This document shows positions 42,022-63,859 of a stretch of DNA of 64,000 nt, in pieces. Origin of the DNA: Ferrithrix thermotolerans DSM 19514 (GTDB lineage Bacteria > Actinomycetota > Acidimicrobiia > Acidimicrobiales > CAIXPF01); the NCBI GenBank assembly GCA_945906305.1, contig CAMDQT010000020.1:1-64000 (forward strand), written 5' to 3'. The first letter of the stretch is position 1; the number at the start of each line of letters is the position of its first letter. The translations under genes and the position numbers were made by a program. The notes beneath the pieces were generated by a model. That model was not told the origin of the DNA. It saw only the letters and a list, made by a program, of their open reading frames with translations, and ran no database searches.

Positions 42022-42461
42022 ACGAACGGGCCAAGCGGGTCAAGACGCTGCTCCGGGTGACCAACATCCGCCGCAAGCAGTCCGAGGCCTCCCTCGCCAA
42101 GGCAGAGCTCGAACGCCGCGCCGCGCTCGCCCGACAGGCGCACACGGAACAGCGGCTCCGTGAGACGGCGACGCTGCCCGCGGGGACGGTCTCCTCGCTC
42201 GATGCGCGGCGCCAGAGTACCGATTTGCGCATCGACGCGGTGCTCAGCGCCACACAGGTGGTGGCCGCAAGTGCCGAGGAAGTCGCGACCGCCCGTCTGC
42301 GCTGGCAGGCGGCGGCTCGCGACGAGAAGGTCATGGAAGAACTTGAGCGCCGAGAAAAGGCGGTACTGGCCATCCGCGCCACCCGGGTTGCCGAACGAGC
42401 GGTTGACGACGCGCTACGTGCGCGTCGCGCCGAGAGGTTGACAGGAGGGCAACAGGGATGA
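42018..42461 (+). CDS. fliJ: FliJ-like flagellar export coiled-coil protein
   Basis: 147 aa, a nearly continuous coiled coil (RVKTLLRVTNIRRKQSEASLAKAELERRAALARQAHTEQRLRE; EKVMEELERREKAVLAIRATRVAERAVDDALRAR). Length, charge and place between fliI and fliK identify it as FliJ, the stalk of the export ATPase. Overlaps of four bases on both sides. Primary sequence of FliJ is poorly conserved. Confidence 0.85.
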   Translation: MNERAKRVKTLLRVTNIRRKQSEASLAKAELERRAALARQAHTEQRLRETATLPAGTVSSLDARRQSTDLRIDAVLSATQVVAASAEEVATARLRWQAAARDEKVMEELERREKAVLAIRATRVAERAVDDALRARRAERLTGGQQG

Positions 42462-43720
42462 ACGAAGGACTCAGTGGAGTCATGGGCCGCATTAGGCAGA
42501 TCAGGTCAGTCTTTGGTGCTGGCGGCGGCCCGCTCGGGGTGTCGATCGGTGGCCCTGACGGTTTCGAGCAGATGCTGCGCACCGCCAGCTCGACGCGGTC
42601 CAAGAAGGCTTACACCCCGAGCAACATCCGCAAGTTCTCCGCGTCTGATCCGCTGGAGCGCGTCGCCATTCCAAAGGGTACGCGCGCCACCAGCCGGCCA
42701 AGCGAACGTTCTCCCCATTGGCCCGATGGCGTACCGTCCGAGGCCGACCAGTATGCGGACGACTTCATCGCCGCGGCGGAAGCAACCGGCGTTCCGTTGC
42801 AAGTGTTGTTGGCGGTGGCGAGGGCCGAGTCGGGCTTCAATACCGACGCCGAGTCTGCGGCCGGGGCCGTTGGCATCATGCAGCTGATGCCGGGTACTGC
42901 ATCGGGTCTCGGAGTCGATCCAACGGATCCGACCCAGAACATCCTGGGCGGGGCACGTTACCTCGCGGCTCAATTCGAGAGCTTTGGCTCCTGGGAGCTC
43001 GCCTTCGCCGCCTACAACGCTGGCCCTGGTGCCGTCGAGCGGTACGCGGGAATCCCGCCGTACCGCGAGACTCAGAACTACCTCGACGCGATCAATGAGT
43101 TCCTGGACGAGATGACGACGCCAATACCGAGCGTGGTCCAGACCTTGAGCACACAGCGAGCCCCGATGGCCGACATGGTCGTCGACCTCAACGTCGGGAC
43201 TCGCAGCGATCCGGGCGATTCCGGGGTCGGGGACCTGAGCCAGCAAGCCCGTCACGGGGCGAACTCGTCGGAGATCGGCGCGGTCAATGCTGGAGCTGGT
43301 CGCCGTGTCGATGCCGCGGCACCGACGCTGCTGAGCACGCCAGCGGCGCTGGGCGAGCAGCTACTCGCACAAATCCAACGGACCAAGGCCAATGGCGCCA
43401 GCGGCCACCGGTTGACTGTTCGGCTCGACCCGCCCGAGCTCGGCCGACTCGATGTCAGCTTCGAGCTGCGGGGCGAACAGGTCTATGTCGTGGTGCGTCC
43501 CGAGAAGACCGAGGGAGCTGCTCTGATGCTCCAACAGCGAGAGCGCATCGCCGAGCTGTTCGCCCGGGAAGGCCTGCAACTGTCCAGCTTCGATGTTGGC
43601 ACCAGCAACCAGAGCCAGGGCGGTGCGACCCAGAATCAGTCCGGCAGCCGCAACTTCATTGCCCCCAACCTTGACCTCACCGAAGTCGCGTTCACGGTCG
43701 ACCGTGAACTGCGGCTGTGA
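42458..43720 (+). CDS. fliK: Lytic transglycosylase fused to FliK hook-length control domain
   Basis: 420 aa with two unrelated domains. Residues ~100-220 are an SLT-type transglycosylase: LLAVARAESGFNTDAE with catalytic E124, GAVGIMQLMPGTASGLGV and AYNAGPGAV. Residues ~315-385 are a FliK Flg_hook domain: LTVRLDPPELGRLDVSFELRGEQVYVVVRPEKTEGAALMLQQRERIAELFAREGLQLSSFDV. A ~90-residue linker joins them. The protein would combine wall penetration by the rod (FlgJ-like in Gram-negatives) with switching export from hook to filament. Place between fliJ and flgD is the fliK position. Confidence 0.88.
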   Translation: MNEGLSGVMGRIRQIRSVFGAGGGPLGVSIGGPDGFEQMLRTASSTRSKKAYTPSNIRKFSASDPLERVAIPKGTRATSRPSERSPHWPDGVPSEADQYADDFIAAAEATGVPLQVLLAVARAESGFNTDAESAAGAVGIMQLMPGTASGLGVDPTDPTQNILGGARYLAAQFESFGSWELAFAAYNAGPGAVERYAGIPPYRETQNYLDAINEFLDEMTTPIPSVVQTLSTQRAPMADMVVDLNVGTRSDPGDSGVGDLSQQARHGANSSEIGAVNAGAGRRVDAAAPTLLSTPAALGEQLLAQIQRTKANGASGHRLTVRLDPPELGRLDVSFELRGEQVYVVVRPEKTEGAALMLQQRERIAELFAREGLQLSSFDVGTSNQSQGGATQNQSGSRNFIAPNLDLTEVAFTVDRELRL

Positions 43721-48518: not shown

Positions 48519-49586
48519 GTGGCGAGAGGCGACGAGAAAACAGAGCAGCCCACTGGCAGGCGCCTCCGCGAGGCCCGCCGGGAAGGCCGCCTACCCAATT
48601 CGACCGAGGTGCCCCAGGCCCTCACCCTGATTGCCGCGGTGCTGGTATTGCCCGCGCTCATGGGCAGGATGGGCTCGACCCTGGTCAACGGCTGGCAGCA
48701 GACGATGGTGACGGCCGACCCCGTCGATCCCAGTGCAGCCCTGAACAGCCTGCGGAGTATGGCATTGCACAGTGTGCTGCTGCTCGTCCCGTTGGTCGGC
48801 GCGGTGGTCGCCGCCGCCATTGCCGCCCGGGCGATTCTCGGCGGCGTCCAGTTCAACAGCCACCAGTTGAAGCCGAAATTCAAGGGCCTCAATCCCTTCC
48901 CGGGAATCAAACGGCTGTTCTCGCCGCGTCAGGCTGGCCAGCTCCTCCGACTGGTTCTCAAGCTTGGCGCGCTCGCTGTGGTGTCCTTCGCCATGTGGGA
49001 CCGGTTCGTGGCCGTGGTGTTCCAAGGCCCATCCAGCCTTGAGGCCTTCGTCAGCAGCGTGGGCAACGCAATTTGGGCGTTGCTGATCGCCGTGATCGGC
49101 GTGTCGGTAATAACCGGTGGTGTCGATGGCTCACTGGCGCTGCGCCGCTATCGCAAGGACCTGCGCATGACCAAACAGGAAGTCAAAGACGATGCCCGTC
49201 AGTCCGAGGCGAATCCCATGGTCAAGAGCGAGCTGCGGGCTCGCCAGCGCAAGATGTCGCGGATGCGCATGATGGCTGAGGTGGCCCGCGCCGACGTCGT
49301 GCTCACCAACCCGACCCATCTCGCGGTGGCCTTGCGCTATGAGGCCGACTCGGTGGCGCCGAAGGTGGTGGCGAAAGGGGCCGGACACATCGCCGCCCGG
49401 ATCCGCGAGGTTGCCGCGGAGGCAGGCGTCCCCGTGCAGGAGAACAAGCCCCTCGCCCGAGCGCTCTTCCACAACGTGGAGATCGGAGAAGTGATCCCGG
49501 TGCAGCTCTACCAGGCCGTGGCTGAGGTACTCGCCGTCGTCTACCGCACGGCGAGCCGTCTGACGAGCGGGGCAGGTGCGCCATGA
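48519..49586 (+). CDS. flhB: Flagellar export gate protein FlhB
   Basis: 355 aa. FlhB switches export specificity after autocleavage between Asn and Pro of NPTH; DVVLTNPTHLAVALRYEADSVAPKVVAKGAGHIAARIREVAAEAGVPV shows it intact. Four membrane helices precede it. EKTEQPTGRRLREARREGRLPNSTEV is the family N-terminus. GTG at 48519 is used. It overlaps flhA by four bases. Confidence 0.96.
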   Translation: MARGDEKTEQPTGRRLREARREGRLPNSTEVPQALTLIAAVLVLPALMGRMGSTLVNGWQQTMVTADPVDPSAALNSLRSMALHSVLLLVPLVGAVVAAAIAARAILGGVQFNSHQLKPKFKGLNPFPGIKRLFSPRQAGQLLRLVLKLGALAVVSFAMWDRFVAVVFQGPSSLEAFVSSVGNAIWALLIAVIGVSVITGGVDGSLALRRYRKDLRMTKQEVKDDARQSEANPMVKSELRARQRKMSRMRMMAEVARADVVLTNPTHLAVALRYEADSVAPKVVAKGAGHIAARIREVAAEAGVPVQENKPLARALFHNVEIGEVIPVQLYQAVAEVLAVVYRTASRLTSGAGAP

Positions 49587-51700
49587 GCATGGCTCCTTCG
49601 CCGGTGTCGGAGATGCGGGGACGTTTCGCCGTTATCGGCATCCCGTTCATGATCGTGGCCATCGTCCTGGTAATGGTCGTGCCCTTACCGCCTGCATTGA
49701 TCGACCTGCTGCTGTCGGCCAACCTGGCCATTTCGGTGTTGATCATCGTGACCGCGATGGTGATTCGCGATGCGCTGCAATTCTCGGTCTTTCCGGCCTT
49801 GTTGCTGGTTACGACGCTGGTCCGACTGGCCCTGAACGTGTCGACCACCCGCTCCATCCTCAGCAAGGGTTTCGGCGGTGAGGTGGTCGAGGCCTTCGGT
49901 GGTTTCGTGGTCGGGGGCAACATTGTCATCGGTTTGGTGATTTTCCTCATCCTGGTGGTCATCCAGTTCTCGGTGATCACCGCTGGTGCGGGACGTGTGG
50001 CCGAGGTCGGCGCCCGGTTCACTTTGGACGCCATGCCCGGCAAGCAGATGGCCATCGACGCCGATCTCAATGCCGGGCTCATCACCGAGGCGGAGGCGAA
50101 GTTCCGCCGGGCCGAGGTTGGCCGGGAGGCCGACTTCTACGGGGCCATGGACGGAGCTTCGAAGTTCGTCAAGGGCGATGCGGTAGCAGGCCTCATCATT
50201 GTCGGCATCAACCTGCTCGGCGGTATTGCCGTCGGGGTGATGCAGCAGGGCCTCGGGGTGAGCGAGTCAGTGCAGCGGTTCTCGTTGCTCGCGGTGGGCG
50301 ATGGTCTCGTCTCGCAGATCCCCGCGCTGTTGATCTCGGTGGCGTCGGGCATCATCGTCACCAGGGCCAGCTCGGACAACAACGACGGCCTCGGTGGCGA
50401 CCTTTTCCGCCAGTTGTTGCAGAGTCGGCGAGTGCTGGGTATCGCCGCCGCGGTCATGGGGGCTATGGCGCTGTTGCCCGGCTTGCCCAAGATCCCGTTC
50501 CTGGCGATTGCCTTCGCCCTCGGTGTGGCGGCCAGCCGACGCAGCGAAGGTGATAGGGCGGGCAGGGCGTTTGCCTCTCCGTCGGAGCTGGCTGGGTCCG
50601 AACGTGAAGTCACGACGGCCGAGGACCCTGACGGCCTCGCGGCCCAACTGCTGGTCGAGCCACTCGAGCTTGAGATTGCATCGGACCTCTACGATCTCGT
50701 GGAGGGCGCCGGTGGCGGGCTGCTCGACCGGGTCAAGTCGCTACGGCGCCAGATCGCCCGGGAACTGGGCCTGGTGGTTCCGCTGGTGCGGACCCGCGAT
50801 GACATCTCCTTGCCGGCGAGCACCTACGTCATTCGGGTCTATGGCGTCGAGGCCGGTCGGGGAACGGCGCCTCCGGGACAGGTCCTGGTGCTGGCCGATG
50901 GCGCCACGGTGCCTATTGCCGGAACGCCGACGAGCGAGCCGGTCTATGGGCTGCCTGCGTACTGGGTGACCGCCGATTTGGCCGGCCACCTCGAGGCGCA
51001 GGGTGCCACCGTGATCGATCGCGGCACCGTCATCGTGACCCATCTGGCGGAGCTGGTGCGACGCAACGCTCCTGAGCTCCTCACCCGTCAGGCCACCCAG
51101 CAGCTGCTCGACACGGTCAAGGAACACGCCCCCTCCGTCGTGGGCGATATTGGGTTGTCCGACAGCCTCAGCTTGGCTGAGGTTCAAGCCGTACTACGAG
51201 GTTTGCTGCGCGAACAGGTCCCGGTGCGAGACCTCGTCACGATCCTTGAGACCATCACGTCCAAGGCGCGCGAGACTCGGGTGGTTGAAGAGTTGGTGTC
51301 CGCCGCCCGTGTTGCGCTCGCCAGTGCCATTTCGGCCCAGGTGGCCGACGAGAACGGCATACTGCACGTCATCACGCTTGAGCCCATGCTCGAACGTCAT
51401 CTGCTCGAGGCGGTGCAGACCGGCCCATCTGGGTCGTTCCTCTCGGTTCCACCCGAGCGGCTCGAAGACCTCCTCCTCGCCTTCGATCGAATGATCGTCG
51501 ATGTCGAAAATCTCGGCATCAGCCCGACCGTGATCGTAAGCCAGCAACTGCGCCCCGTGGTGCGCAAGATGCTGGCTCCCTCTCGCCCTCAGCTTCCGGT
51601 ACTTGCGTACCCCGAACTGGCGAAGTCCCTGCACATCGAACCCGTGGGAGTGATTGACCTTGAACGACAAGATGCACCAGTACAGCGGGTCGACCATTGA
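49583..51700 (+). CDS. flhA: Flagellar export gate protein FlhA
   Basis: 705 aa. About eight N-terminal helices, then the FHIPEP-type cytoplasmic loop (VTTLVRLALNVSTTRSIL, GRVAEVGARFTLDAMPGKQMAIDADLNAGLI). The C-terminal ring domain is full length and includes LSLAEVQAVLRGLLREQVPVRDLVTILE. It receives chaperone-substrate complexes for export. A downstream gene begins inside its 3' end. Confidence 0.96.
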   Translation: MSMAPSPVSEMRGRFAVIGIPFMIVAIVLVMVVPLPPALIDLLLSANLAISVLIIVTAMVIRDALQFSVFPALLLVTTLVRLALNVSTTRSILSKGFGGEVVEAFGGFVVGGNIVIGLVIFLILVVIQFSVITAGAGRVAEVGARFTLDAMPGKQMAIDADLNAGLITEAEAKFRRAEVGREADFYGAMDGASKFVKGDAVAGLIIVGINLLGGIAVGVMQQGLGVSESVQRFSLLAVGDGLVSQIPALLISVASGIIVTRASSDNNDGLGGDLFRQLLQSRRVLGIAAAVMGAMALLPGLPKIPFLAIAFALGVAASRRSEGDRAGRAFASPSELAGSEREVTTAEDPDGLAAQLLVEPLELEIASDLYDLVEGAGGGLLDRVKSLRRQIARELGLVVPLVRTRDDISLPASTYVIRVYGVEAGRGTAPPGQVLVLADGATVPIAGTPTSEPVYGLPAYWVTADLAGHLEAQGATVIDRGTVIVTHLAELVRRNAPELLTRQATQQLLDTVKEHAPSVVGDIGLSDSLSLAEVQAVLRGLLREQVPVRDLVTILETITSKARETRVVEELVSAARVALASAISAQVADENGILHVITLEPMLERHLLEAVQTGPSGSFLSVPPERLEDLLLAFDRMIVDVENLGISPTVIVSQQLRPVVRKMLAPSRPQLPVLAYPELAKSLHIEPVGVIDLERQDAPVQRVDH

Positions 51701-53567
51701 GGAAGCGCTCCAGTTGGCCACGGCCGAACTGGGGCGTGATCTCACGGTGGTTCGAGCCCGGCGAGTTTCCTCCAAGCGGACCCTGGGTTTCGGCTCGAAG
51801 GTCCGTTTCGAAGTTGATGTCCTGGCCGGCAACGAGGCACCAATGGTGGCGTCGAACAGCTCCGACGGTGAGTTCGGTGGCGTCCTCGCCGGCCTGATCG
51901 ACAACATCGAGCGGCTTGAAGCCGACCAACATCGGGGCCCTTCGTGGCCCGCCGAGGAGCGCGAGCACCCTGGCCGGTCCGAAATCGGCCCGCCCGCTCG
52001 GTCGGCATTCGGCGACGCCGACCTCGCCTCGGGTGCTGGCCAGTACCGGACCAACACCGCGAGTCCTACCCGGCCGGCTGACCGTGCGGCGTCGACGGCC
52101 GGTCAGTCACGAATTGATCTCCGTTCGCCGCGGTCTGAGGTGGATGACGAGGTTCTGGCCTCGCTGGCGGGTCGGCCGCCTCGCCGATCCGCAGCCGATG
52201 ACCTCACCCCGGTGTCGGCCCGGTTGGCCCGGGCGGCCATTGCGCCTGCGGGCGTTGCGGATCAAGGGGCGCCAGGAGGCGCTACCACCAGAGGCGACGT
52301 TCGTGCGGTTCGTCCTGCGAGGATGGCGGCAGCGACTATCCCGATGGCGGGAGCGAGCGCCGATGCCCTCGCCCGTGCCGCCCGCAAGGCCGCGGAGCGT
52401 GCTGCGTCCGGCCGGGTCGGTGGGCTGCTCGCCGCGGGGGACGAACGTGATTGGCGGGGTGATGCCAGCACTGCTGGGGTCCAACCGGTGGCCGAGCGGC
52501 TGCTGGCGGAGCATCTTGAGGTCGAACGCCTTAAGGCGGAGCGGGTGTTGGCCGAAGCGCGTGAGGCGGCCGAAGAGGCTCAAATTGAACGAGGGCGCGT
52601 TGAGGAGGCCGAGGCCGAGGCCACGGAGATCCGCCGTCGGCTCGACGCGGAGCGCGAGGTTGCTGAGGCGTGGCTCGTCGCCCGCGAGACTGAGCTGGCC
52701 TCACGGTCCTCTCAACCCGTGCCGCCCCGCTCGCCGATGTCGGGCTGGTCCCGCCGGGCGCGGCCAACGATTGACGAGGGCACGGTCGAGGCGGAATGGG
52801 TCAGTTCCCACCACGACATCGACCAAACGCCGGCCATTGTCGACTTGGCGGTCGACGATGCGGCAGAGATCGTGCTCAAGGGTGAGGCCGGGCTCGTCAT
52901 CGAACTCGAACTGGAGCCGAAACGCCCCCCGCTGGTCGCTGAAGGACCGACCAAAAGCGCCCGATCCCGGCCCACCCGTCGGCGGCTGCGAGGTCTGTCC
53001 CACCGTGAGCCTGCGTTTGGTGTCCAGGACCACAACCAACCGGTCCCGGCCGACATCGCAATCGGGCGGGATACGCCCAACTCTGGGTCAAGTTCGACCA
53101 AGCGCAGCGCAGGGTTGATGTCCTCCCTCGGCTCCGCCCGCGGGGTTGTAGATCAGCCCGTGGGTCGTGTCGAACTCACGAGCGGTGTGCTGTCCTTTGG
53201 ACTGGACGAACCTGGCTCCACCGAGCTCGCTCTCGGTGGCGAGCCGGGTTGGTCCCTGGAGAACCTCGCGGCGATGGCCTTTCCTCCGGTCGCCCTCGAG
53301 GCACTTGGCCGGCTCGACTTGCGAGCCGACGCCGACTGGATGTCCGCGGTCGAGCTGTTCATCCGGGAGCACGTTCCGGCACCAGTGAGCCGGGCCATTG
53401 ACAGTTCTGGGGTGTTCCTTTCCGGCTCCGACGCCAATTCGGCCCCGGCGATAATCCGCGCCGGTCTGTTGGGTTTCGTGCCCGGGTACATCTTTGTGGA
53501 CGGCCAGTTCCGTCTTGCCACTTCAATCGAGCTCATGCTTGCGATCCGCACGTGCCTTCCCCGGTGA
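51672..53567 (+). CDS. FlhF-like protein lacking the SRP GTPase domain
   Basis: 631 aa from ATG 51672; in-frame TTG codons at 51654 and 51660, the latter with GGGAG nine bases upstream, are alternatives. Residues ~1-55 (MHQYSGSTIEEALQLATAELGRDLTVVRARRV then TLGFGSKVRFEVDVLAG) resemble the FlhF B domain, and the gene follows flhA as flhF does. No P-loop or other G motif of the SRP family exists. Instead there are Ala/Arg/Pro-rich disordered stretches, a Glu/Arg coiled coil near 270-345, and a compact C-terminal ~100 residues (ALEALGRLDLRADADWMSAVELFIREH ... FVPGYIFVDGQFRLATSIELMLAIRTCLPR). Function unknown; a polar or assembly scaffold is conceivable. Confidence 0.7.
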   Translation: MHQYSGSTIEEALQLATAELGRDLTVVRARRVSSKRTLGFGSKVRFEVDVLAGNEAPMVASNSSDGEFGGVLAGLIDNIERLEADQHRGPSWPAEEREHPGRSEIGPPARSAFGDADLASGAGQYRTNTASPTRPADRAASTAGQSRIDLRSPRSEVDDEVLASLAGRPPRRSAADDLTPVSARLARAAIAPAGVADQGAPGGATTRGDVRAVRPARMAAATIPMAGASADALARAARKAAERAASGRVGGLLAAGDERDWRGDASTAGVQPVAERLLAEHLEVERLKAERVLAEAREAAEEAQIERGRVEEAEAEATEIRRRLDAEREVAEAWLVARETELASRSSQPVPPRSPMSGWSRRARPTIDEGTVEAEWVSSHHDIDQTPAIVDLAVDDAAEIVLKGEAGLVIELELEPKRPPLVAEGPTKSARSRPTRRRLRGLSHREPAFGVQDHNQPVPADIAIGRDTPNSGSSSTKRSAGLMSSLGSARGVVDQPVGRVELTSGVLSFGLDEPGSTELALGGEPGWSLENLAAMAFPPVALEALGRLDLRADADWMSAVELFIREHVPAPVSRAIDSSGVFLSGSDANSAPAIIRAGLLGFVPGYIFVDGQFRLATSIELMLAIRTCLPR

Positions 53568-53818
53568 GGCATCGGGGCCTGGCTCTCATCGGGCTGGGCG
53601 TGATCGGGCTGTTGTGTGTGCTGCTGCTGCGAGGCGCAGTGACCCTCGAGGTCGCCGCACAGCGGGCGTTGCTCACCGTATTGGTCCTGGCGGTGGTTGA
53701 TCGGGTTGCGATGCCTTTGGGTCGGGCCATGCTGGCCACGGGTCGGGTAGCGGCGCAACCGCTGGAGCACAGCTCGATCAACGGAGACCTCGGCGAGAAT
53801 GAGGGGCGCGTCAACTGA
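53564..53818 (+). CDS. Small membrane protein in flhB-flhA operon
   Basis: 84 aa from GTG 53564, which overlaps the preceding stop (GTGA); GTG at 53552 would add four residues. Two hydrophobic stretches, GLALIGLGVIGLLCVLLLRG and QRALLTVLVLAVVDRVAM, indicate two membrane helices with a hydrophilic C-terminus. No family recognised. The stop overlaps the kinase start by one base, so it is translated with it and may anchor the kinase or the FlhF-like protein. Confidence 0.65.
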   Translation: MRHRGLALIGLGVIGLLCVLLLRGAVTLEVAAQRALLTVLVLAVVDRVAMPLGRAMLATGRVAAQPLEHSSINGDLGENEGRVN

Positions 53819-54621
53819 TGGCGCGCCTCCAATCTCGTCATGCCAGTCAGGCTGGCGTCGTTCGGCTCGGAGAGGGCGGCTTCGGCACGACCTACCGGTT
53901 GTCGGGCCGTCGGGGCAACCAGCCCGTGGTGCTCAAGCTGATGCCAGAACACGACATTCGGGCCCGGCTGTCGGCTCGGCTCGAACAGCAAATCGGGGCT
54001 ATCACGGCGTTGTCCCATCACGAGGACATGGTCACTATCGCTGCCTGGGGAACGCGCCATGGCCGTTGGTATGTGGCCTTCGAAGAGGCGGTTGGTGGGT
54101 CGCTGGCCCAGTTGGTGGACGCGGGCGGGTCGCTAGATTGGCGTCGCGTCGTTCGGCTCGGCGTTCGGCTCGGTCGGGTTCTCGAACTTGCGCATGATCT
54201 CGGGGTGATCCACCGCGACATCAAACCGGCCAACATTCTGCTCGATGCTCAGGGCCGCCCGTTGCTGACCGACCTCGGCTTGGGCACGTTGGGGTGCAGC
54301 TTCAGCCTGGGCACGCCTGCTGCGGCCGACAGCCTGGCGGTGGCCGCCCCTGAAGCGGCCCGCACGATGAGCTTGGCACCGGAGTCCGACGTCTATGCGC
54401 TGGCTGCCACGATGCGCCTGTTGCTTGGCGGCCGTGGACATTCGAGCCGTCGTCGTAGCGAGCCGCCGCCGACCCTGATCGCGCTTTTGGACTGGGCGAC
54501 GGCCCGTGAGCCAGCACGGCGGACTTCCTCGATGGCGGCGTTTCGGGCCGAACTCGAGCTGCTCGATGACGGTCATCATCGGCCGTTGCACATTCGCCTC
54601 GGCGACCGCCTGGCGGGTTGA
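53818..54621 (+). CDS. Hanks-type Ser/Thr protein kinase in flagellar operon
   Basis: 267 aa, kinase domain only. Glycine loop GEGGFGTTY (residues 18-26), lysine K40 in VVLK, catalytic HRDIKPANIL with D134, and the metal-binding DFG replaced by DLG (D152). The activation segment reads into AAPEAARTMSLAPESDVYALAATM, with the structural Asp. There is no transmembrane helix or PASTA domain, unlike PknB. As the last gene of flhB-flhA-flhF-like, it may phosphorylate flagellar export or regulatory proteins. Substrate unknown. Confidence 0.88.
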   Translation: MARLQSRHASQAGVVRLGEGGFGTTYRLSGRRGNQPVVLKLMPEHDIRARLSARLEQQIGAITALSHHEDMVTIAAWGTRHGRWYVAFEEAVGGSLAQLVDAGGSLDWRRVVRLGVRLGRVLELAHDLGVIHRDIKPANILLDAQGRPLLTDLGLGTLGCSFSLGTPAAADSLAVAAPEAARTMSLAPESDVYALAATMRLLLGGRGHSSRRRSEPPPTLIALLDWATAREPARRTSSMAAFRAELELLDDGHHRPLHIRLGDRLAG

Positions 54622-59318: not shown

Positions 59319-60146
59319 TCAGGCCCGAAGGAGTTGCAGGACCGTCTGGGGAACCAGGTTGGCCTGGGCCAGCATGGCGGTCCCCGCCTGCATCAAGATC
59401 TGGTGCCGGGTGAACTGCACCATCTCGGCCGCAATGTCGAGGTCGCGGATTCGCGACTCCGAGGACTGCAGGTTCTCGGTGGTGACCTGCAGGTTGGTGA
59501 TGGTGTGCTCGAGGCGATTCTGGGTCGCGCCGAGGGCGGCCCGGAACGAGTTGATCTCGTCGATAGCTTCGCGGACGCTGTCGATGGCGACCGACGCGGC
59601 GTTCGCCAGGTCGATGGTGCTGAGGTCGACTGCGCTGCCGGCACCGTCGCTGAGCGAAGCCGAGGACAGCACCTGGGTCGAGATGGCGATCACGTCGGTG
59701 CTATTCGCACCGATTTGGAAGGTCACACCGGCGACGCCGAAGACGTCACTGCCCGCGAACTTGGTGGCGCTGCCGATGGTGTCGATCTGAGCGAGCAGTT
59801 CGAGAACCTCGGCCTGCTCGGCCTCGCCGTCGCCGGTGGCGGTGTTGGCGGCCGATACCGCCAGTTCGTTGATCCGTTGCAAGATGCTGGTGACCTCATC
59901 GAGCGCACCTTCGGCGGTCTGCACGAAGCTGACCCCATCCTGGGCGTTGCGCACGGCCTGATTCAGGCCGCGGATGTCGGCGCGAAGTCGCTCGCTCTTG
60001 GCCAGGCCGGCCGCGTCGTCTGACGCCCGGTTGATCCGGAAACCGCTGGAGAGCCGTTCCATCGACTTGTTCAGCATTCCGTCACTGATGGTCAGGTTCC
60101 GGTGAGCGGTAACCGCCATCGTGTTTTGGTTGATTCGCAATCCCAT
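59319..60146 (-). CDS. fliC2: Flagellin 2
   Basis: 275 aa from ATG 60146, with GGGAGGAAG upstream. The ends closely follow flagellin 1 (MGLRINQNTMAVTAHRNLTISDGMLNKSMERLSSGF; QNRLEHTITNLQVTTENLQSSESRIRDLDIAAEMVQFTRHQILMQAGTAMLAQANLVPQTVLQLLRA). The middle is also similar but diverged (TFQIGANSTDVIAISTQVLSSASL), so the two are paralogues. It lies 49 bases after an HEXXH peptidase gene on the same strand. It may form a different filament segment or be used under other conditions. Confidence 0.95.
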   Translation of the reverse strand: MGLRINQNTMAVTAHRNLTISDGMLNKSMERLSSGFRINRASDDAAGLAKSERLRADIRGLNQAVRNAQDGVSFVQTAEGALDEVTSILQRINELAVSAANTATGDGEAEQAEVLELLAQIDTIGSATKFAGSDVFGVAGVTFQIGANSTDVIAISTQVLSSASLSDGAGSAVDLSTIDLANAASVAIDSVREAIDEINSFRAALGATQNRLEHTITNLQVTTENLQSSESRIRDLDIAAEMVQFTRHQILMQAGTAMLAQANLVPQTVLQLLRA

Positions 60147-60195
60147 TGCACTTCCTCCCTGAAGAACCATTCCCTAAGCGACGCGAACTTCCGTG

Positions 60196-60846
60196 TCAGC
60201 GTTTCCTGATCAATCGGGCGGCAAGCACATCGGCTTCAGGCATGAAATGGGTAAATTGTCCCTTCTCCGCCGACTCTTCAATGCTGGGAATGAGGTTCGT
60301 CTCACAAAGCCGTGCCAGCAGCGCGCAGTGCTCGGCGGTGGGCGCATCGCCCAGTAAAGACTTGAATTCGGTCGATCCGAGCTGCCATGCGGCGAAACAT
60401 TCCGCCCAGTCTCCGGCCGGGGTGGCAAAATCGTCCGCATCGGAGGCCCCGAACCAGTCGAGCCGGTTGTGGAGCTGCCGTTCGAGGCGCCACTGGGCCC
60501 GAGAGGCGGGGTCGAGGTGTTCGAGGTCGATGGCATGGCCCAACTCGTGGGCCACGGCGAAGGCGACATGGCGGACGTGCTGGCCGGGCCGTACGTAGAT
60601 CTCGATGATGCGGTCGGGCCAGATCGTGCGTCCGAGATACCCCGGTTGTTGGGCCAGGAATCGCATCGACCATTCGGGCAGCAGACGCTGCCACGGGTAG
60701 CGAATCATGCGCAGCGCGTCCCCGGCCACGGCCGCGGCGGTGGGCGTGGTGAACGAGCTTCTCAGGGTGCGCCTCGGCCTGAGTTGTGAGGCCACCTGGG
60801 CGCCATCGACTCGAGAAGGGTGGCCAAATTGCGGGTCGTGTGCCAT
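60196..60846 (-). CDS. HEXXH zinc metallopeptidase-like protein upstream of flagellin 2
   Basis: 216 aa from ATG 60846, preceded by GGAGGG at nine bases. AVAHELGHAIDLEH is a zincin motif, with GDWAECFAAW downstream as a possible third-ligand helix. Other stretches (TIWPDRIIEIYVRPGQHVRHVAFAVAHELGHA) look like a compact peptidase core without signal peptide or membrane helix. No specific family is recognised. The 49-base gap to flagellin 2 and shared strand suggest cotranscription. A housekeeping or prophage-type peptidase unrelated to motility remains possible. Confidence 0.7.
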   Translation of the reverse strand: MAHDPQFGHPSRVDGAQVASQLRPRRTLRSSFTTPTAAAVAGDALRMIRYPWQRLLPEWSMRFLAQQPGYLGRTIWPDRIIEIYVRPGQHVRHVAFAVAHELGHAIDLEHLDPASRAQWRLERQLHNRLDWFGASDADDFATPAGDWAECFAAWQLGSTEFKSLLGDAPTAEHCALLARLCETNLIPSIEESAEKGQFTHFMPEADVLAARLIRKR

Positions 60847-60924
60847 GACGTCGGCCCTCCGTGGCCGCTTGATCCGGCTGGTCGAGATAGTTCGAGACCG
60901 GCGCGTCGAGTCCGTGACGCAGGT

Positions 60925-60954
60925 CCGTTGGGTAATGGGTGGGTAACCCAACGG
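60925..60954. repeat. 9-bp inverted repeat upstream of HEXXH gene/tsaE
   Basis: CCGTTGGGT (60925-60933) and ACCCAACGG (60946-60954) are perfect complements separated by 12 bases. It sits in the 211-base divergent region and ends four bases before flagellar palindrome copy 4. Could be a regulator site or a transcribed hairpin. No T-run follows. Confidence 0.5.
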
Positions 60955-60957
60955 CAA

Positions 60958-60973
60958 TAGGACCGCGGTCCTT
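60958..60973. promoter_or_regulatory. Flagellar palindrome, copy 4 (different centre)
   Basis: TAGGAC-CGCG-GTCCTT contains the perfect 14-bp palindrome AGGACCGCGGTCCT (60959-60972). Arms and spacing equal copies 1-3 but the centre is CGCG instead of GATG. It lies 111 bases before the HEXXH-flagellin 2 pair and 84 bases before tsaE, divergently. Confidence 0.45.
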
Positions 60974-61040
60974 GAGCGAGCTCGTCGCGTTGAGGCTCCC
61001 GATCCCCAATGCGCGGTACTGGCCGTTCCCAAGGGCGGGG

Positions 61041-61555: not shown

Positions 61556-62277
61556 TCGTGGGGATCGAGACCTCTTCCACCCAGGTGAGCTGCGCCCTCG
61601 GCGGCCCGGACGGCGTGCTGGCGGCCTCCCAGGTGAACCGCGGTCAGCGCCACGCGGAGTTGCTCAGCCCCATGATCGGCCAGCTATGCGCGGCGGCCGG
61701 CGTGTCCTTGGACTCGGTGAACGCAGTGGCCGTTGGGGTGGGGCCGGGGCTGTTCACTGGCCTGCGAGTCGGCTTGGCCACGGCAAAGGCCATGGCATTT
61801 GGTCTGGGGGTTCCCGTCATCGGGGTGGGTTCGCTTGAGTTGGTGGCCTTCCCTGTCCGTTTCGCTCCGTGTCGGATCGTTGCGGTCACCGATGCTCGCC
61901 GGAGCGAAGTTTTCTGGGCTCGCTTCAGTGGCGGCATGGACGGGGTCGAGGCCTTCGGGCCGTCTCAGGTCGGGTCGCCGGCCGAACTTCGCGCTGAACT
62001 CGATGCTGAACTCGATGCTGATGGCGCAGGCGCAGGTCATCTTCTGGTGGGTGATGGCGCGCTGCGCTACCGGGAGGTTCTCGCCGCTGACGGCGTGGAG
62101 TTTGCTAACTCGGCCCTGGCCCATCCCTCGGCCTGGGCGCTGGTGCAGGTGGCGAGGTCACGGGCATCGGTTTCGTCGACGGTCCCACCGCAAGACGTGC
62201 ACCCGGTGTACCTGCGTCAGCCCGACGCCGAGGCCAACTGGGTGCAGCGGCCAACTAGCGAAGCGCCGCGGTCATGA
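61549..62277 (+). CDS. tsaB: tRNA threonylcarbamoyladenosine biosynthesis protein TsaB
   Basis: 242 aa from GTG 61549 (VLIVGIETSSTQVSCALGGP). TsaB is the ASKHA-fold partner that scaffolds TsaD. NAVAVGVGPGLFTGLRVGLATAKAMAFGLGVPVIGVGSLE is the family core and DARRSEVFWARF follows. A small tandem repeat ELDAELDADG occurs near residue 155. Upstream in-frame codons lie within tsaE. Confidence 0.93.
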   Translation: MLIVGIETSSTQVSCALGGPDGVLAASQVNRGQRHAELLSPMIGQLCAAAGVSLDSVNAVAVGVGPGLFTGLRVGLATAKAMAFGLGVPVIGVGSLELVAFPVRFAPCRIVAVTDARRSEVFWARFSGGMDGVEAFGPSQVGSPAELRAELDAELDADGAGAGHLLVGDGALRYREVLAADGVEFANSALAHPSAWALVQVARSRASVSSTVPPQDVHPVYLRQPDAEANWVQRPTSEAPRS

Positions 62278-62828
62278 GCAAGGTCGGACCAAATGGCGTC
62301 GTGCCGCCGCCGGTGCTGGTGGCACCCATGCGCCGTCGGCACCTGCCCTCGGTGTTGCGTATCGAGAAGCAGGTGTATCCAAGGCCGTGGACGATGAGCC
62401 TGTACCTGGGCGAGCTGACCCTGCCGACCTCGCGGTGCTATCTGGTGGCTAGACAGGACCATCGCCTAGTCGGTTACGCCGGGTTCATGTTGACCCTCGA
62501 TGAGTGCCACATCACCACGGTGGCGGTCGATCCGGATCGCCAAGGAAACCGCATCGGGACCCGGTTGGTGCTCGAGCTTGCCCGTCGAGCGGTGGCGCGT
62601 GGAGCGACCAGCCTCACCCTCGAGGTCCGTGAGAGCAATACGGCGGCGCAGGCGTTGTATCGCACGTTCGGGTTCGTTCCGGCCGGGGTTCGCAAGGGGT
62701 ATTACGCCGAGGTCAATGAGGATGCGTTGATCATGTGGGCCCATGACGTCGACACGGCCGGGTACGGGCAACGCCTCGCCGAGATCGAGTCCGGCCTGCC
62801 CGACCCGACCATCAGCGAGGGGCTTTGA
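62274..62828 (+). CDS. rimI: Ribosomal protein S18-alanine N-acetyltransferase-like GNAT
   Basis: 184 aa. The GNAT fold is clear: PMRRRHLPSVLRIEKQVYPRPWTMSLYLGEL, VGYAGFMLTLDECHITTVAVDPDRQGNRIGTRLVLELARRAVARGATSLTLEVRESNTAAQALYRTFGFVPAGVRKGYY. The acetyl-CoA loop RQGNRIG is present. Between tsaB and tsaD the gene is conventionally RimI. The real protein substrate may be broader. Confidence 0.9.
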   Translation: MSKVGPNGVVPPPVLVAPMRRRHLPSVLRIEKQVYPRPWTMSLYLGELTLPTSRCYLVARQDHRLVGYAGFMLTLDECHITTVAVDPDRQGNRIGTRLVLELARRAVARGATSLTLEVRESNTAAQALYRTFGFVPAGVRKGYYAEVNEDALIMWAHDVDTAGYGQRLAEIESGLPDPTISEGL

Positions 62829-62833
62829 ACGTC

Positions 62834-63859
62834 GTGAGCAGATCGTCCGTGGTAGTGCTCGGTATCGAGACATCCTGTGATGACACGGCGGCTTCGGTTC
62901 TGGCGCGCCGTGCCGACGGCACCCTCGAGGTGTTGTCGTCGGTCGTGTCGAGCCAGATCGATCTTCACGCCCGTTATGGCGGAGTTGTGCCCGAGGTTGC
63001 CTCGCGGGCCCATATCGACCGAATTATCCCTGTCCTGGCCGAGGCGATGCGCGAGGCCCACGTGCAGCGCGGCGACCTCGATGCCATCGCGGCCACGATC
63101 GGCCCGGGCTTGGTCGGTTCGTTGTTGGTGGGGGTCAGCGCGGCGAAGGCACTGTCGTTGGTGTGGGGAGTTCCCTTCGTCGGGGTGAACCACCTCGAAG
63201 GACATCTGTTCGCACCGTTGCTGGAGGAACAGGATGTGGCGTTTCCGTTGCTGGTGCTGTTGGTGTCGGGCGGTCACACAATGCTTCTGGGTATGTTCGG
63301 GCCCGGCGACTATCGCTTGATGGGCCGAACCTTGGACGACGCCGCTGGCGAGGCGTTCGACAAGGTGGCGCGTTACCTGGGCTTGGGCTACCCCGGTGGC
63401 CCGGTAATCGACCGGTTGGCTACCGAGGGGGACCTCAGCGCTATTGCCTTCCCCCGCTCGATGTTGCACGACGGCCTCGACTTCTCCTTCTCCGGGTTGA
63501 AAACGTCTGTCGTCAACTACGTCCGTCGCCATCCAGAGGTGGCCGCCACCGATGTGGCGGCGTCCTTTCAGGAAGCGGCGGTGGACGTGTTGGTGCACAA
63601 GGCCCGTCTGGCCGCGTCGCAGATCGGCGCAGTTGGGATGAGCCTGGCTGGTGGGGTGGCGGCCAATACCCGCCTTCGGGCCCGCTGGGCCGCCGCCGCC
63701 AAGGCCGATGGCCGTCGTGCGCATCTACCGTCGCTGGCCTATTGCACCGACAACGCGGCGATGGTGGCCGCCGCTGGGCTGTGGCGTCTGGCCGAGCTTG
63801 GTCCCACGCCGCTGGACTGCGGTGTCGATCCAAATCTGTCCCTCGCCGCGCTGCTGTGA
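62834..63859 (+). CDS. tsaD: tRNA N6-adenosine threonylcarbamoyltransferase
   Basis: 341 aa from GTG 62834; GAGGGG lies 11 bases upstream, whereas TTG at 62825 is too close to it. TsaD catalyses t6A formation. VLGIETSCDDTAASVL, GPGLVGSLLVGVSAAKAL, the metal motif NHLEGHLFAP near residue 120, LVSGGHTMLLGM, DFSFSGLKTSVVNYVRR and YCTDNAAMVAAAG are all present. Last gene before the heat-shock operator. Confidence 0.95.
   Translation: MSRSSVVVLGIETSCDDTAASVLARRADGTLEVLSSVVSSQIDLHARYGGVVPEVASRAHIDRIIPVLAEAMREAHVQRGDLDAIAATIGPGLVGSLLVGVSAAKALSLVWGVPFVGVNHLEGHLFAPLLEEQDVAFPLLVLLVSGGHTMLLGMFGPGDYRLMGRTLDDAAGEAFDKVARYLGLGYPGGPVIDRLATEGDLSAIAFPRSMLHDGLDFSFSGLKTSVVNYVRRHPEVAATDVAASFQEAAVDVLVHKARLAASQIGAVGMSLAGGVAANTRLRARWAAAAKADGRRAHLPSLAYCTDNAAMVAAAGLWRLAELGPTPLDCGVDPNLSLAALL

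Follow-up and report, generated by a model that had tools for sequence, protein, structure and literature searches.

A genus-restricted Hanks-type Ser/Thr kinase gene at the end of a flagellar export operon in Ferrithrix thermotolerans

A Hanks-type Ser/Thr kinase is encoded at the end of the flagellar flhB-flhA operon of Ferrithrix thermotolerans DSM 19514 and its congeners. The reading that we favour, with a probability of about 0.5, is that a genus-specific kinase was added at the end of an ancestral operon comprising flhB, flhA, an FlhF-like gene and a gene for a small membrane protein, and that it has been retained there for a flagellar role. The DNA analysed (the window) is a stretch of 64,000 nucleotides at the start of contig CAMDQT010000020.1, and the source genome is a 3.1-Mb assembly.

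Organisation of the operon

The genes motA, motB and fliL precede flhB on the + strand of the window, and fliR, fliQ, fliP, fliO, fliN, a FliM-like gene and the flagellin gene are encoded on the opposite strand downstream of the kinase. The operon itself is a run of five overlapping genes on the + strand:

48519..49586, + strand: flhB (Pfam Bac_export_2, 353 bits)
49583..51700, + strand: flhA (Pfam FHIPEP, 789 bits), with an ATGA overlap with flhB
51654..53567, + strand: FlhF-like gene, 637 aa, starting at TTG 51654 or ATG 51672 (assigned from TIGR03499, hhalign and position)
53552..53818, + strand: small two-helix membrane protein, 88 aa (assigned from hydropathy, order-wide position and comparison of starts with congeners)
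53818..54621, + strand: Hanks-type Ser/Thr kinase, 267 aa (assigned from Pfam Pkinase, congener orthologues, alignments and AlphaFold2)

flhA and the FlhF-like gene share about 29-47 nt, according to which start is taken for the latter; ATG 51672 lies nearer the start position in relatives. The FlhF-like gene and the small membrane protein gene overlap by 16 nt, or by 4 nt if the small protein starts at 53564. The small gene is joined to the kinase gene by TGATG, a junction that is the same in two of the three congeners and reads TGAcGTG in the third; the stop of the small gene and the start of the kinase gene thus overlap in three of the four genus genomes and are separated by a 1-nt gap in the fourth. 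A previous reading of this DNA from its sequence alone had described four overlapping genes; all of the junctions do overlap, but the run consists of five genes, the 637-aa FlhF-like gene (51654-53567) having been left undescribed. Because of these overlaps we infer that the kinase and the export gate are produced jointly, synthesis of the kinase presumably being tied to that of the gate through translational coupling.

Elsewhere in the window, the ORF at 42458-43720 fuses a lytic transglycosylase (SLT) domain with the Flg_hook domain of FliK. Past the flagellin gene (59319-60170), three ORFs on the - strand (60199-61032, 61687-62124 and 62705-63724) have no Pfam match and may not be genes.

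The kinase and its distribution

Judged by its sequence, the last gene of the operon encodes a genuine Hanks-type kinase, compact and odd. The protein scores 86.7 bits with Pfam Pkinase (cut-off 31.7), and alignment recovered all of the motifs listed in the sequence-only reading, namely the G-loop (GEGGFG, residues 18-23), K40, HRD (132-134) and the DLG that occupies the DFG position (D152-L-G), as well as APE. The accompanying remark that the kinase has no sensor domain is borne out, as the kinase domain spans nearly the whole protein. The glycine loop, the VxLK lysine, HRDxKxxN, DxG, APE and the alpha-F Asp are present and invariant across the four orthologues, the individual invariant residues being K40, D134, K136, N139, D152, G154, E179 and D191, together with Ser172 of the P+1 loop. 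The activation segment is of normal length in the alignment.

The best phmmer match of the kinase is StkP (E=4.7e-16), and the folds nearest to its AlphaFold2 model (pLDDT 84.6, pTM 0.85) are those of PknA (the best, VIA-align Z 25.9), Stk1, PknB and PknI, with Z of about 24-26. PknI of M. tuberculosis is described as pseudokinase-like. A scan of genome contigs returned generic kinases only and no named close relative. In the tree the four genus kinases group together with full support; their shared stem is long and lies among those of actinobacterial kinases, with no firm sister. The operon kinase has the kinase fold and catalytic motifs in common with PknA, PknB/StkP and PknI, but differs from them in being soluble, in its alpha-C Gln and in its location in a flagellar export operon. 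Measured against the criteria for PASTA kinases, it has neither a transmembrane helix nor PASTA domains, and reaches 89 bits with NF033483, the cut-off of which is 450.

Two features set the kinase apart. All 44 comparison kinases have the alpha-C Glu; the window kinase has Gln58 at this position and the orthologues from G001 and G003 likewise have Gln, while that from G002 has Glu. In active Hanks-type members this Glu usually pairs with the lysine, and a minority of the superfamily carries another residue there; its exchange bears on activity, not on descent. The alpha-G segment comprises 14 residues. Of the 31 other kinases covering it, a single one is equally short, two reach 19 residues and 28 have 27-36. 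The AlphaFold2 model passes from alpha-F to alpha-H without an alpha-G helix, a further difference from PknA, PknB/StkP and PknI. The activation loop (158-165) is modelled at low confidence. Negative activity assays combined with a degenerate active site had been named beforehand as a refuting outcome; K40, HRD and DLG are intact, but with Gln at the alpha-C position of three orthologues and the alpha-G helix missing, the site is not entirely of the standard kind.

These features bear on a less likely possibility, that the gene encodes a pseudokinase or a nearly inactive kinase whose part is to bind the FlhF-like protein or the export gate as a scaffold, without phosphorylating it. The Gln in three orthologues, the loss of the substrate-docking alpha-G helix in the genus, the low-confidence activation loop and the presence of PknI among the nearest folds are in line with such a role, and there is a parallel in Chlamydia, in which the kinase-like gene pkn5 sits in a T3SS operon and Pkn5 is a predicted pseudokinase and T3SS substrate (PMC5177608). 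However, the invariance of K40, HRD, N139, D152, Ser172, APE and the alpha-F Asp, the normal length of the activation segment and the retention of the alpha-C Glu in the G002 orthologue argue for catalysis. The predicted kinase is probably cytoplasmic and active, though its catalysis may be weak or gated, since K40 would face Gln58 instead of Glu.

An orthologue of the kinase is found in all four sampled genomes of the genus, directly after the small membrane protein gene and at the same junction, and the protein is 68-83% identical to those of the three congeners. It was absent from the other 393 of 397 genomes of the order in a profile search (E<=1e-45). Inspection of 32 non-genus flhA loci in the order and of 47 further loci of the phylum, some of them short, revealed no kinase-like ORF downstream of flhA. 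Given these absences, the kinase is not a flagellar component commonly found in the order or the phylum, and by its distribution the gene is a genus-level addition to an older operon. Pairwise dN/dS of the kinase (0.09-0.27) is close to that of flhA (0.07-0.22) and below those of the FlhF-like gene (0.24-0.49) and the small membrane protein gene (0.31-0.56), with dS near saturation in several pairs; purifying selection acts on the kinase. The sequence-only reading had conceded that it would fall if the kinase gene were missing from the operon in all close relatives; since the gene is kept in all four genus genomes and is under selection, this objection fails.

Confinement to a single genus would also be expected if the kinase had been brought to the operon end by chance and were co-transcribed there while acting on a non-flagellar target. 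The other flagellated relatives examined have no equivalent and evidently manage without it, and, as only four genomes were sampled, its genus-wide linkage could be an inherited neighbourhood. However, the stop/start overlap or near-contact has been kept although the congener kinases are only 67-82% identical, and we consider this explanation unlikely.

The FlhF-like gene and the small membrane protein

The gene between flhA and the small gene codes for a protein with an FlhF B domain, a long low-complexity, charged middle and a short C-terminal domain. The FlhF model TIGR03499 matches residues 6-75 of the window protein with E=1.5e-4, far below the full-model cut-off, and the N-terminal part of this model is matched by all eight FlhF-like members tested (E 0.012 to 1.8e-10). 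The B-domain profile matches the homologues of the order with E=5.3e-9, and an FlhF-like gene directly follows flhA in 28 of the 31 non-genus order loci with sequence past flhA, the same position as that of flhF in Vibrio (PMC7226244). A profile of 14 members from the order aligns with 12 intact actinobacterial FlhF proteins at an hhalign probability of 98.4% (E=7.9e-15). The C-terminal part alone gives a weak match to FlhF (E=0.0018, probability 15%), collinear over 196 columns, and the C-terminus of the genus proteins is likewise weakly matched to that of the order (E=0.007, probability 5.5%). A search of solved structures with the FlhF-like profile returned nothing significant.

The window gene differs from FlhF in having no Walker A motif, and its GTPase domain is weakly recognisable; in the genus this domain is largely unrecognisable. 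None of the order loci has the motif GxxGxGK[ST] in the gene that comes after flhA, while 15 loci of other groups or classes of the phylum do. The interpretation of the protein as a putative pseudo-GTPase draws on its B domain, its gene position and the hhalign comparison over the full length. A survey of actinobacterial flagella reported FlhF to be lacking in later-branching classes, including Acidimicrobiia (PMC10746217); our comparisons suggest a diverged FlhF remnant in the order, not an absence. Work on Vibrio describes flagellation as critically dependent on the binding of GTP by FlhF and assigns no function to the B domain (PMC7226244).

RLEAER-type charged repeats lengthen the middle of the FlhF-like protein in the congener loci L061, L062 and L063 (818-951 aa), the window protein being shorter (637 aa). 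At L064 (G005:C437:5158-5700), from another genus of the family, there is only a 180-aa piece of flhA with divergent neighbours, possibly reflecting contamination or decay.

The small membrane protein (window 53552-53818; also L065-L094) is uncharacterised and has no Pfam or NCBIfam match. Its start is likelier to be GTG 53552 (88 aa) than GTG 53564 (84 aa), because three congeners have ATG at the former position; the two-helix protein described earlier is therefore present, but its length of 84 aa needs revision. Of the 26 readable non-genus loci in the order, 25 have a small gene encoding one or two hydrophobic helices after the FlhF-like gene, and the kinase is missing from all of them; on this evidence the small gene is an old, order-wide flagellar gene that belongs with the FlhF-like gene. 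As flhA, the FlhF-like gene and the small gene recur across the order without the kinase, these three represent the conserved unit; of the gene set that had been proposed for a conservation check, the kinase is kept in four of four genus genomes, but outside the genus it is this trio that persists. The order-wide occurrence also shows that the small protein does not serve the kinase specifically as an anchor and rules out such an ancestral role, so that its earlier interpretation as the membrane anchor of the kinase is not supported. A dedicated membrane-anchored unit of the two proteins, which would suit their overlapping genes and a kinase with no membrane segment of its own, is very improbable given the loci that carry the small gene in the same place without the kinase, and any contact between the two may have been acquired later.

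Proposed role of the kinase and its significance

In the favoured reading, that of a kinase recruited to the operon and retained for a flagellar role, the enzyme would phosphorylate a neighbour and so tune flagellum number, placement or export; the likeliest targets would be the FlhF-like protein or the cytoplasmic portions of FlhA/FlhB. The FlhF-like protein is a candidate substrate, with its middle apparently expanded into a charged coiled coil in the genus. Since the kinase lacks an alpha-G helix for docking as well as any sensor or membrane domain, it would need to bind its target directly. We infer phospho-control of the flagellar export gate by the kinase, and the data suggest that phosphorylation control of flagellum building was recently acquired in the genus. 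A bolder and rather improbable extension is that FlhF lost its GTP switch in this lineage and that the genus put phosphorylation of the GTPase-dead FlhF-like protein in its place, governing where, when or how many flagella are built.

Kinases tied to export machines are known from other systems. In Chlamydia, to which the likeness is drawn by description, CdsD, a protein of the T3SS, is an in vitro substrate of the membrane kinase PknD (PMC5177608), but the machine that PknD and Pkn5 are tied to is an injectisome, not a flagellum. According to two reports, the Ser/Thr kinase of the PpkA-PppA-Fha system is encoded in the locus of the T6SS that PpkA controls (PMC3224232, PMC3953482). Unlike that system, the flagellar kinase has no FHA or PP2C partner gene in the window, the PF00498 and PF13672 matches of the genome lying on contigs other than C20. 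Hanks-type kinases are also linked to motility in Sulfolobus, where ArnC and ArnD influence it (PMC5300886); these are archaeal, and the archaellum is a different rotating structure. The sequence-only reading had taken phospho-control not to be a described standard part of a flagellar export operon, and a limited literature search indeed found no description of a Ser/Thr kinase in such an operon, but T3SS loci (PMC5177608) and T6SS loci (PMC3224232) carry kinases.

As far as this limited search shows, this would be the first case of a Ser/Thr kinase integrated genetically into an operon for flagellar export, in parallel to the kinases of T3SS and T6SS loci. The data also point to an FlhF without Walker A that has gone unnoticed throughout a class for which FlhF was reported absent, and to a small membrane protein as its partner. 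Such a Walker-A-less FlhF-like gene makes FlhF function without GTP a directly testable question.
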